From Mucor racemosus (lineage: Eukaryota > Mucoromycota > Mucoromycetes > Mucorales > Mucoraceae), in assembly GCA_027405735.1 (NCBI GenBank), contig JAPEHQ010000013.1:62001-126000 (forward strand): a stretch of DNA of 64,000 bases. The letters are read 5' to 3'. The position numbers were made by a program, and so were the translations under genes. This document shows, one piece after another, positions 12,241 to 17,196 of the stretch (position 1 is its first letter; each line of letters starts with the position of its first letter). The notes below the pieces were generated by a model that saw only the letters and a program-made list of their open reading frames with translations, was not told where the DNA came from and did not search any database.

Positions 12241-12270
12241 GGTACACCGCCAACACTGTCAGTTCGTTAA

Positions 12271-12367
12271 CAGTATCTTCACCCTGAGACTCAACCAGAC
12301 TCAAGGTATTTTCGAAGTCAGATCGAAAATACCTTGAGTCTGGTTGAGTCTCAGGGTGAAGATACTG
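12271..12367. repeat. Perfect 45-bp-arm inverted repeat (hairpin)
   Basis: Arm 12271-12315 and arm 12323-12367 are exact reverse complements (first bases CAGTATCTTCACCCTGAGAC), separated by the 7-base loop AGTCAGA. The bases just outside do not pair (A on the left, G on the right), so the arms are sharply bounded. It lies about 280 bp upstream of the Fanzor-family start codon. Either strand's transcript would form a 45-bp duplex. Its purpose is unknown; it could be an element terminus, a foldback MITE or a small-RNA precursor. Confidence 0.9.
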
Positions 12368-12513
12368 GGTTTGAGTTGCTTATACTGAAAAATATGCAAG
12401 GACAGTAGTAGTATTCACAAGTTTTGACTTGTGAAAAGCCTTTGACATGTTGGCAATAAGAGTCGCACAGTAGTTTGCTTCGGTTCATTTGTATTAATAG
12501 CCTTTAAAAACAC

Positions 12514-12520
12514 TATAAAT
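12514..12520 (+). promoter_or_regulatory. TATA-like box of the Fanzor-family gene
   Basis: TATAAAT about 130 bp upstream of the ATG at 12649, followed by AT-rich leader sequence. Suggestive only. Confidence 0.35.
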
Positions 12521-12648
12521 AAAGAAAACTATCTTTTGATTCTCCTGTAGATTTACCTAATATATTAGCTACTAAATAATAAATAATCAAAATCTACATA
12601 CTCGTCATCAATATTTTACTTAAAGCATTATTTTTATACAAAAAAAAC

Positions 12649-15600
12649 ATGAGCTCCCCACCTCCTACCGAGAATAATATTTGTAAAAGACGTCTTATTG
12701 TTGAAGATGAAAAAGAAATCGAAGCAGAAATCGAAAGCCAACATGTTCTCATGGATGCTGTAGATCAAAATCACCCAACGTTTGTACCTGATACTGAAAT
12801 TTTCACTAGGGCACGTACGGTATAATATCAAAACAACAAAGAAGCTCATATATTTGCAATTAACTTTTTTTAACAACTTGCGAACTTGACATTCTGCAAA
12901 ACCAAATAAATTATTTGGATTGATTTGGCCCCACAGCGTGAGCGAGGAAACCCCGCTGTTGGCCAACATTGAATGTATTAGCATCGACAACATTTGATCT
13001 TTCTTTTCTTCTTTGTCTATTGTAATAACATCTCAATGCACATAAAAAGAAAACAATTAAATATATACGTTCCTGGCACTACAAGGAGAAATTTACCAGC
13101 AACTTTGGAAACACAAACAACTAGTCGTAGAAGAGCAATAACTGATGATGATGAAGCTTATATGAACTCGTTGAAAACTCAATTTAGACATAGAATCATA
13201 AAGCATATCAAAACATGCCATGATAAAAACGAGTCTTTCGATGATTTATACAAAACATTGATGCAGTTAAAACAACTTCCAAGAGGTGTGGTCTCGAGCG
13301 CTGAACAGAGCATCAATGCACCAGTAAATTCAATTGTAGTGTATCTAAATCGTGTAACAAGAACAACCAAAAAGAAAAGCATTGAACATTGGAAAGACTA
13401 TGTAAAAGAAAATTTTGAATCCCTCAAAGATTCAGTAACGATACAAGAAGAATCCACTGCAGCTCAAGAAGGCGTTGAAGAGCAAGAAGAAGTAGATGAA
13501 GAAGAACCGGAAGAAATAGATGATAATGAAGTAGAAGACGACGTAACACATAGAACTTGCTCTGCATCCTTCTCATCAGTTATTCGAAAGGATTTCCCAC
13601 AAAATTGTCGATCAACATTCATTGGTACTATCAATAAAACCATTGAACAAGCTTCAGATTACTTGGCTGATTTCAGCAAGCAAGTAATGAAAATGTTGCT
13701 GCTTTTCAAAGACAATCAATTTATCACAAATAGCGGCAATATTCAATTAGTGCACCAAGAGGGACAAAGTATCAATCCAGTGTTACCAGTAGGATATCTA
13801 CACGAGGATGTGATTGTGCCTAAGCCCTTAAATAGTCAATTCCTGCAGACTGATAGCCTGAAAGAAGAGTACAATGCATTATTCCAAGAGGCTCACTTTG
13901 ATCAAATCCATTCAACTTACTTTGGATCAAAAGGAATTAGCAAATCCACCCTGAATACGGCACGACTTCATAAAGCAATAGTAAATTTACTTGAGCGTGA
14001 TGAGGAGAATGTTTACAATGATTTGTCGTCTCACGTTATGAAAATGGCAAGAAATGTTTATATCGCCAATTTCATGAATATGTGGGCAGATAATACAACC
14101 GTAAACAAAGCATTGAACAGGCTCTTGAATATTCTATTGATTGTCCATTTATCTCCTGCTCGTGATCAAGAATTCAAGAAAAAACGCGAGGAGCTCAAAG
14201 GAAAGAATAAAGGAAAGAATAGACAGCCTCCTAACAACAATTGTGCCATTCCAGTAAACTCGATGTCACTCATCAACAAAACTTATAATGGACGCAGAAG
14301 GCTTTTCGCTGACGAGATTAAAAGAAGAAATCGTTGTATCGAGAAAGGAGGAGATTGGGTTGTTAAGCAATGGAAAGCTAGCTTGTGTCAGCAAAGGCTG
14401 AACTCATATGCAGATGTTTTGCAAAGAGAGGTAAGATTGATGAACAATCGAATTGAACAAGTATATTAAACAACCTTCTAGAAACAAAAGCGGCAAGTGA
14501 GACGAGAGCAGCAACATCAACAACAAGAAGAGCAAGGTATCAAAATGCAAGAAGCGTTGGTAGAAGAAGAGATTCAAGATGTTGACATGGAAGATATTTT
14601 GGTAGAAGAGGACACCTCGCGAAAAAGAATAAACCAGTTAAAGCAGATAACAAGAGCAGCTCTTTTTGAGGAAAAAACAATTTGCAAAGCATATTTTGTT
14701 GGTAAATTGAGCAACATTAGCGACAAAGAAGTGGAGGTCATCTTGAAGATTATTAAATTTGTAAAGCCATACATGGCATCTAGAGCCACATACCATGTCT
14801 TTTCACATCAAATTCCCTTTCTCTTGATGGTTAATCAAGTATTGCGTTCTGTTGGTTACCATGAGCAAGTGGTGAAATTGACCCCCATCATCAGGCCTAC
14901 AAATCTGCACGCGTTATGGATTGATGCTACTACATTACACTCTTTGTTTTGTGCTCGAAAGCTGGAACATAAGATGGTACTCCATGATTTCGAAGGGAAC
15001 GTCATTCGTGCGGCTTCAGTTACGTCTCAAAAGGATGCTGTGTTTAGTAGTTTTTTCGACATAGATCGTCTAAAAACAATATGTGCTGGCTACGGGTTGC
15101 AATTCGCCTACCGTATGCATGTACTACCTGGACTTCAGTGTGTGAGAATCCTTGGTACTAGAAATTACCAAAAGCATAAACAGAAGAATAAACAGCAACC
15201 TCCTGTGACTCAGACATCCACAAGAAGCAATGAGATCAACAGCAGAATTGCAGCATTGATTGACCAGAAGACCACAATAGAGAAAAGGTTGAAGAACGCT
15301 CAAATTACACTTAATAAATATCTACTTGGTTCAGAAAGTGCTTCTCAACTGAAAAAAAAATGGAATGATGAAAATATAGATAGAGACTCGCTGCATAAAG
15401 AGATACAAGTGGCCAAGAAAAAGAAGAGACAATTGATTCAAGAAGTAGTGAAAGCAAAGCAAGAACTATCCAGTGCCAATAATAACATCTACAAGCAGAG
15501 ATATGACGCTACCTCCTCTACCGAAAGAAGACAGATAATACCAGTCGAGCCCAACAAACCTTGCCATCACAAGGTGGAGGAGTGTATTATTGATCAAAAA

Positions 15601-16645
15601 GTAGATAAAGACCAACTTGTATTTTCAGGGACAGACAACGGTATTATTAATGTCACGGAGACAGTTGCTTTTGGTGTCGATAGGTTGAAATATCATCTTC
15701 GTTTGTATAATCGCTTTCAAGTATTACAAGATCAAGGTAATTTAATGCTCGTTAATATCTTGCTTGTGGCTAATTTTCAATGCACAAATTTTAGAAGACG
15801 CTTATATGGAAGAGAAAGAAGACGCTCAGTTGAAGAAATTGCCCACATCATTCAAGGTAAGGAGTGCCGCCCTCCGCCAACATAGTGGTCTTGCTTCTTT
15901 TTCGTCTTCGCTCAATAGAAGAAAGCGCCTCACAGTCTTAGGTCAAAATGTTGCTGATCTTGAAAGCGATCTTTCTGAGTCCAGTATACAGCAATGTGGT
16001 ACAATTGATGAACTGAATGCAACATTCACTCGCCATTCCCAAGCAAAGTCATGTATTCGTCAATTTTACTTTTCAAGATCGAGTGCTAATAAAAAAAGAC
16101 GATTAGAATTAACGAAAAATCGATTTTATGATAGACTTGCATCAAAGGAACGAAAATTTACGAAAGTATCGTCCCCTATTATGTTTATTGGAGATCGTGG
16201 GCATGCAATCAGGTCTCCTATTAAAGGACATTTGCGATTTGGTGGATATTGGAAAGAACTGATACATTCTCGATATACGCCTACATTGATCACTAATGAA
16301 CACAACAGTTCTCAGACCTGCCTTTGGTGTTTCAGCAAATTATCACATCCGTATACTGCAAAAAATGGTACAGTCAAGAAGACTAATGGGTCATTCATTT
16401 GTTTGAACGATGTCTGCCCAAATAAGTCTGTCGTCATGAGCAGGGATTGTCTTTCTGCATTAGCGATTGGTCTCGCTGGTGCTGCTCAGCTTATGCTTGG
16501 TTACACCTTTCCTTGCTTTGATCCAAAAAACACAACAGCGAAACAAGCAATGTTCTCTCAATTAGCTCTGGTATTTTCGGATAGAAAACAGCAGACAAGC
16601 TGGCCCTCCGTTGGGGGTAGTACGACGAGAGCTTCAGCTCTTTGA
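12649..16645 (+). CDS. Fanzor-family (TnpB-like) RNA-guided-nuclease-type protein, apparently intact
   Basis: Predicted exons are 12649-12819 (tentative), 12982-14430, 14482-15736 and 15795-16645, giving 1,241 residues. If exon 1 is wrong, Met at 13036 is the fallback start. The C-terminal RuvC-like region carries GTDNG (Asp925, candidate RuvC-I), NEHNSSQTC (Glu1127, at the place of the Fanzor DEyrTSk.C motif) and SRDCLSALA (Asp1176, RuvC-III). A zinc ribbon CxxC (1134/1137) and CX4C (1161/1166) lies between the last two. The N-terminal half is acidic/Gln-rich plus a coiled region and is not recognised. Fanzors are eukaryotic relatives of IS200/IS605 TnpB, and some are proven RNA-guided DNA nucleases. 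Introns 2 and 3 (51 and 58 bp) have clean GT-AG borders and keep frame. Exon 1 splicing (GTATAA donor, ATTAG acceptor) is the least certain part. No second transposon gene is adjacent. Confidence 0.8.
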
Positions 16646-17196
16646 GGTAAGTTTATATTCATTAGATATAACTCAATACTAAATCAATTCATTCTTTAAT
16701 CTTCTAAATTCAAATTCACCTTTGGTAAGTAAAATCCTTCCACATTTGTTACCCAGTCAACTAATCAAATCTCTCTTTCCTTTTTGAACTACTTAGCTTG
16801 CTATACCCTCTCAGTATTTAAACTCAATACCATATATCATCACCCCTCAAAGTTTTACAACAACAAATGCCACTATAGTAGGATTAATACTGTATAGAGA
16901 GAAATATATAAACATATTTTACATGCTAAAAAACGTATATAAACAATTAAATACGCCAAGATATGTGTTTAAAGATTGAAAACAATACTTTGAAGTCTCA
17001 ACATACTTACAAGCGAGGGTCAAATCTCGAAATGGTACAACAATAGTTTCATGAAACTTCCACTCAAATTGTAAAAATTTGAAGGATTCCAACTCTGGAT
17101 CTACAAAAAGATTACACCAACACATCATGGGCTTTATTGTTGACATTCCATAGACCTAAGCAGTCGATTAAAACCATTGATTTAGGTCTTTAAAGT
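16646..17196. other. 3' flank of the Fanzor-family gene
   Basis: The stop TGA is followed at once by GGTAAGT, a donor-like word, then AT-rich DNA. A weak stem pairs AGACCTAA (17152-17159) with TTAGGTCT (17182-17189) across a 22-base loop. A minus-strand frame at 17010-17146 (start MSTIKPMMCWCNLFVDPELE) ends at a GTAAGTATG donor near 17005-17015 and may be an exon relic; I do not recognise it. Fanzor guide RNAs are often encoded next to the gene, so this flank and the 5' flank are the places to look. I cannot identify one by eye. Confidence 0.35.

Follow-up and report, generated by a model that had tools for sequence, protein, structure and literature searches.

A predicted Fanzor1 nuclease in a multi-copy, probably CryptonF-type mobile element of Mucor racemosus

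Relation to described Fanzor and Crypton elements

The Fanzor1 nucleases PpFz1 of Parasitella parasitica (9cf0), SpuFz1 (8gkh) and GtFz1 (9cer) are the closest described relatives of a protein encoded in a 64,000-nucleotide stretch of Mucor racemosus DNA, the whole of which is referred to here as the window. The window protein is larger than these three, with which it shares 9-14% identity in structural alignments, and is carried by a different transposon. The third catalytic place is occupied by Asn in GtFz1 (PMC11423790), but by Asp in the window protein. The gene is part of a mobile element of ~4.55 kb (positions 12269 to 16817, forward strand) with at least 23 near-identical copies. This is probably a non-autonomous element, likely of the CryptonF type, which encodes a predicted Fanzor1 nuclease and is moved in trans by the tyrosine recombinase (YR) of related elements.

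The occurrence of Fanzor1 together with Crypton transposases has been mentioned in print (PMC10711439; PMC3627910). The MCi-2 family of Mucor circinelloides (Bao & Jurka 2013, PMC3627910), like the window family, is a multi-copy Fanzor1 family with a constant, Fanzor-bearing 3' end, a variable 5' end and no terminal inverted repeats (TIRs), and one MCi-2 subfamily carries part of a Crypton transposase. MCi-2 was left unclassified in that report and is reported to have target site duplications (TSDs) of 11-12 bp, whereas the window family has CAGTAT repeats, no TSD that could be found and ends shared with recombinase-bearing elements, the two families being compared by description only. CryptonF elements (Kojima & Jurka 2011, PMC3212892) have short direct repeats at their termini, mostly of 6 bp, and no TIRs, as does the window element, and combine a YR with a GCR1_C domain, Ndc10 being a relative. 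The partner elements described below likewise encode YR-type and GCR1_C domains, while the window element lacks a recombinase and has a terminal palindrome and a Fanzor cargo. The Spu-1 elements carrying SpuFz1 (Saito 2023, PMC10432273) resemble the window element in having no transposase between their ends, but differ in possessing 30-nt inverted repeats. A limited search of excerpts from the literature on Fanzor with Crypton or tyrosine recombinases, on CryptonF and on Mucor yielded no description of a transposase-less Crypton-Fanzor element with shared ends and selection.

Copies, ends and recombinase-bearing relatives

A search of the 53.2-Mb genome with the spliced protein, in which the best 40 of 174 candidates were scored, identified at least 23 loci including the window copy, and DNA searches with the left and right ends (all candidates scored) returned 23 each and a few extra single-end places. 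The copies share sharp borders near 12269 and 16817, beyond which the flanking DNA is unrelated. Most of the other copies are ~4.61 kb in length, as against 4.55 kb here, and the mean coding identity is 98.5% (20 copies; L012, L036 and L037 excluded). This multi-copy mobile element with Crypton-type ends was overlooked in the original prediction made for this locus, which concerned the Fanzor gene. That gene is the sole long gene of the element, the only further frame of at least 100 amino acids (aa) being an antisense frame of 132 aa, and no recombinase or transposase gene was found in the frames and domain scans of the window element. As it encodes neither YR nor GCR1_C, unlike an autonomous CryptonF, the element is classified only as a likely non-autonomous derivative.

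Both termini carry the direct repeat CAGTAT, the presumed Crypton crossover core, on the forward strand: at 12271-12276 on the left, exact in 18 of the 23 copies, and at 16812-16817 on the right, exact in 19, with both exact in 16. No TIR was found in the window element, and a TSD search in the 19 copies whose two ends could both be read gave none that was convincing (best excess 0.21, for 2 bp). Short terminal direct repeats in combination with neither TIR nor TSD are the pattern of a CryptonF derivative.

The search with the left end also led to three further places, which are elements of 7.5-7.6 kb on C26, C13 and C12 that open with the left-end sequence of the window element. The C26 copy encodes NDC10_II and GCR1_C domains in a domain scan, the C13 and C12 copies are ~98% identical to it, and a second Fanzor is encoded downstream of the recombinase in these partner elements. 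They terminate in TATACC-N4-CAGTAT, as does the window element, so that the left-end sequence and the right terminus are common to the window element and its three partners. A separate 2.9-kb Crypton family in the same genome served as a control for local Crypton ends; its junctions carry an 11-bp direct repeat (one locus read), and its ends differ from those of the window element.

A terminal palindrome (12271-12367) with perfect 45-bp arms and a 7-nt loop occupies the left end of the window element. It looks like an inverted duplication, in which the left end known from the recombinase-bearing elements is followed by an inverted copy of itself. A hairpin-type left end is readable in 20 copies, and most of the copies whose left end can be read have a longer version of the palindrome. 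The left end of L014 consists of CAGTAT followed by only the inverted copy, L018 retains only a hairpin remnant, and L009 and L012 have a different left end without a hairpin, together with a right-end variant, GTTACAGTA, that also occurs in the C12 partner. Left ends have thus been exchanged, with the Fanzor and right end retained.

A hairpin at one terminus and the lack of detectable TSDs and TIRs would also be expected of rolling-circle transposition (Helitron2-like or IS200/IS605-like), in which an HUH enzyme acting in trans would recognise the terminal hairpin and transfer a single strand without TSD, and Fanzor1s have been reported in Helitron2 elements of Chlamydomonas (PMC3627910). This explanation is unlikely, given that the hairpin is missing or reduced to a remnant in the three copies named above, that it can be accounted for as an inverted duplication of the partners' left end and that the three elements sharing these ends encode a Crypton recombinase. 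No Rep or helicase was noticed in the listed frames, a genome search aimed at Rep/HUH not having been made.

At the right ends of C26, C12, C13, L009 and L012, TATACC and CAGTA are separated by 4 bp that vary (CTCT, GTTA, ATTA), and two of these variants occur in both families, as if swapped at transposition like coupling sequences.

The Fanzor gene and the selection acting on it

The Fanzor gene consists of three coding exons on the forward strand, A (13036-14430, residues 1-465), B (14482-15736) and C (15795-16645, with the TGA stop at 16643-16645), whose splicing yields an open frame 1,166 aa long from the ATG at 13036. The original prediction of a long frame with two short introns was borne out from 13036 onwards by splicing and by the other copies. 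The lengths of intron 1 (14431-14481; 51 bp here, 54 bp in most copies) and intron 2 (15737-15794; 58 bp here, 57 bp in one intact copy) vary between copies, while exon lengths in intact copies preserve the frame, and this pattern supports both introns. A further upstream exon at 12649-12819 (forward strand) had been proposed, giving a protein of 1,241 residues. This region is open in all 23 copies, and its substitutions in 20 copies (8 synonymous, 19 replacement and no stops, with 6.4, 19.8 and 0.8 expected under neutrality) fit neutral evolution, in contrast to the coding region that starts at 13036, which is under strong selection. Six of ten homologues start at the residue equivalent to the ATG at 13036, the other four are shorter and none reaches upstream. 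On these grounds, 12649-12819 is most likely a non-coding, untranslated leader and the longer protein is abandoned in favour of that of 1,166 aa.

The motifs GTDNG (Asp850, codon at 15634-15636), NEHNSSQTC (Glu1052, 16298-16300), a C-X2-C...C-X4-C zinc ribbon (16319-16417) and SRD (Asp1101, 16445-16447) follow one another in the Fanzor order, as had been noted previously under the numbers 925, 1127 and 1176 for the three catalytic residues. When the window protein is aligned with ten homologues, some of them incomplete, no variation is seen at TDNG, the Glu of NE or the second Ser of NSSQTC (n=11). The published Fanzor1 formula, D-X(125,275)-[TS]-[TS]-X-X-[C4 zinc finger]-X(5,50)-RD (PMC3627910), is matched by D850, 204 residues, S1055-S1056, C1059/1062/1086/1091, 8 residues and R1100-D1101. 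In a motif alignment, as distinct from a structural one, the Glu directly before the zinc ribbon and the Asp of RD correspond to E541 and D606 of SpuFz1 (numbering of PMC10432273). The matches in protein databases, where named, are uncharacterised Mucorales proteins. In a motif check covering the homologues other than P0024-P0027, P0011-P0017 and P0019-P0023 lacked GTDNG and E...TC, being partial or other gene models, while P0009 lacked RD and P0005 stopped short of it.

The predicted model of the orthologue P0001, built from an alignment that included P0011-P0017 and P0019-P0023 as rows, adopts a WED/REC/RuvC/TNB fold at a mean pLDDT of 66.3, with low confidence in its RuvC/TNB part, and its PDB matches at E≤0.001 are Fanzors only (PpFz, SpuFz and GtFz). 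Assignment to the Fanzor family, as originally predicted, is thus backed by motifs, fold and homologues. The aligned range starts at residues 166-168, facing residue 18 of SpuFz, 103 of PpFz and 2 of GtFz, so that the protein from residue ~167 onwards most likely represents the Fanzor WED/REC part, these domain names being carried over from PMC11423790. The N-terminal half had been regarded as unrecognised, which holds for residues 1-165 alone; these lie outside the Fanzor alignment of the P0001 model, and no search was made with them separately. The long N-terminal half could be supposed to act as a transposase domain by which the protein moves its own element, as the gene is the only long one in the element and its 1,166 aa exceed the SpuFz and GtFz chains. 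This is very improbable, as the model aligns with Fanzor chains from residue 167 and no Pfam match above cut-off was found.

Substitutions among the copies show purifying selection on the Fanzor frame. Relative to a neutral expectation based on the spectrum of 81 substitutions in the element's own non-coding parts, the coding regions of 20 copies contain 128 synonymous, 154 replacement and 2 stop substitutions where 76.2, 189.4 and 18.4 are expected, and not one of 20,000 simulations gave so strong a depletion of replacements, or of stops. The ratio of replacement to synonymous substitutions (N/S) is 0.50 of neutral with all 23 copies, and exons A and C are clearly constrained (0.42 and 0.33). 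The spliced frame is intact in 18 of the 23 copies; L010 and L023 carry one stop each, L012 and L037 a frame shift, and the first exon of L036 is 399 bp longer. GTDNG, NE[HY]NSSQTC and SRD are all present in 21 copies, the exceptions being the frame-shifted L012 and L037. Given the depletion of stops and replacements, the family most likely required the protein as it spread, and purifying selection together with intact catalytic motifs indirectly supports the proposal that it could be active. The Fanzor might instead be a passive passenger, decaying while the element spreads via its recognised ends alone, and the five broken copies and the weak constraint on exon B would be consistent with this. 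Such decay is improbable in view of the depletion over the coding region as a whole, the retention of all three catalytic motifs in nearly all copies and the conservation of the 3' non-coding end between families.

Proposed mobility in trans and a candidate guide RNA

The preferred reading is one in which a tyrosine recombinase supplied in trans would excise the element and insert it at CAGTAT-like cores. A transcript of the 3' end would run out of the element to yield an omega RNA, with the right flank, the host DNA after 16817, as its guide, and the Fanzor would cut chromosomes without an insertion at that site, upon which repair would copy the element back. Cutting and copy-back repair are proposed as the reason that the Fanzor gene is under selection without an adjacent transposase. 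More tentatively, and with some doubt, the Crypton core may also serve as the Fanzor target-adjacent motif (TAM): the CAGTA that remains after recombinase insertion would lie beside the empty-site target and, at the opposite end, would form the terminal portion of the guide-RNA scaffold. Every one of the 23 copies would then specify a guide directed at precisely its own empty site, and RNA-guided cutting with copy-back repair would drive and maintain the transposase-less element, which would constitute a natural fungal Crypton-Fanzor gene drive. The role of Fanzors for their transposons is still an open question; here, a Fanzor has been under purifying selection while its element reached at least 23 copies without a transposase, beside rarer relatives (three found) with a recombinase and a second Fanzor. 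The occurrence of the same ends with or without a Fanzor, and with or without a recombinase, makes that role testable. With this family, a large clade of Mucorales Fanzors that escapes the sequence profiles tried comes to light.

A number of results weigh against this reading. The left core of the C13 partner is CGGTAT, and the recombinase frame is broken in all three partner copies. In an alignment with an intact Crypton from this genome, C13 lacks Arg at what is presumably the first catalytic position of the recombinase motif, as do C26 and C12, and C26 additionally lacks the Arg of HxxR. With broken frames and missing Arg residues, the real mobiliser may be another enzyme. A search for empty sites with 19 joined flank pairs found none, its output being 38 self matches and two other places, each of which matched the left flank of L019; as the best 40 of 99 candidates were scored, an empty site may have been missed, but a full site should outrank half-length self matches. 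Target and core are consequently inferred. Exon B is more weakly constrained (0.71 of neutral), its depletion of replacements not being significant (P 0.29) and that of stops being so (P 0.002). The RuvC part, in which the three acidic residues would converge on one active site, is of low confidence in both structure models, the second of which covers the C-terminal part and has a mean pLDDT of 47.7. Sequence-profile searches of the PDB (phmmer/hmmsearch) reach no Fanzor, Pfam scans of the window protein give nothing above cut-off, and the TNB profile PF07282 matches 3 of 26 members at E≤1, the best at 0.085 and 13.5 bits where the cut-off is 26.3.

Known Fanzors derive their guide RNA from this end of the element, with the RNA continuing into the flanking DNA (PMC10432273, PMC10711439). 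A candidate omega RNA scaffold at the 3' end of the window element would comprise 16598-16817 on the forward strand, combining a last-codon hairpin with the conserved 3' non-coding end. In the comparison of the window family with the C26 partner, a single family pair, identity is 71.7% (119 of 166 aligned positions) over the 172-bp 3' non-coding end and 65.0% (521 of 802) over coding exon C, while no similarity is seen in the 400 bp preceding the start. The 3'-end similarity exceeds that of shuffled sequences by 13.7 standard deviations (s.d.), or by 9.0 when dinucleotide shuffles are used, and a third relative on C11 retains the first half of this end. The last-codon hairpin occurs in three families with different letters and, at 1.4-2.0 s.d. 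above shuffles, is suggestive only; it is the one structure common to the two families in which the post-stop region was folded, their folds being otherwise different. All 16 Rfam matches fall under the gathering score, the best being microRNA-like matches to the perfect hairpin of the palindrome. As the right flanks of the 19 listed copies are mutually different, each copy would carry its own guide.

The relative on C11 (L041; C11:1616000-1621500) is a further diverged Fanzor of this clade with NEHNSSQTC, SRD and a partly conserved 3' end. A splice-donor-like GAG|GTAAGT is located at 16644-16652, just past the stop, with a second, GGTAAGTAA, ~80 bp further on (~16725-16735), and similar motifs (GTAGGT and GGTGAGTAA variants) occupy equivalent places in the C26 and C11 relatives (L038/L042 and L041). 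They may represent U1 sites that let the transcript pass the element end, or be linked to an intron-born guide RNA. One left flank of the window family lies within a repeat bearing AAACTGTA near the junction.

The 412-aa recombinase frame of the 2.9-kb Crypton family is open in ~40 of 61 NDC10_II matches. Two identical units of this family are arranged as a head-to-tail tandem in L047 (C8:800800-807600), each junction bearing CAAAATAATAG, and further tandems are suggested by other pairs spaced 2.9 kb apart (C13:317079/319983, C2:1558859/1561763 and others). A second, PF07282-positive Fanzor family is represented in this genome by five matching loci, L001-L005 (G000 C11, C1, C19 and C20), of which L001 was read.
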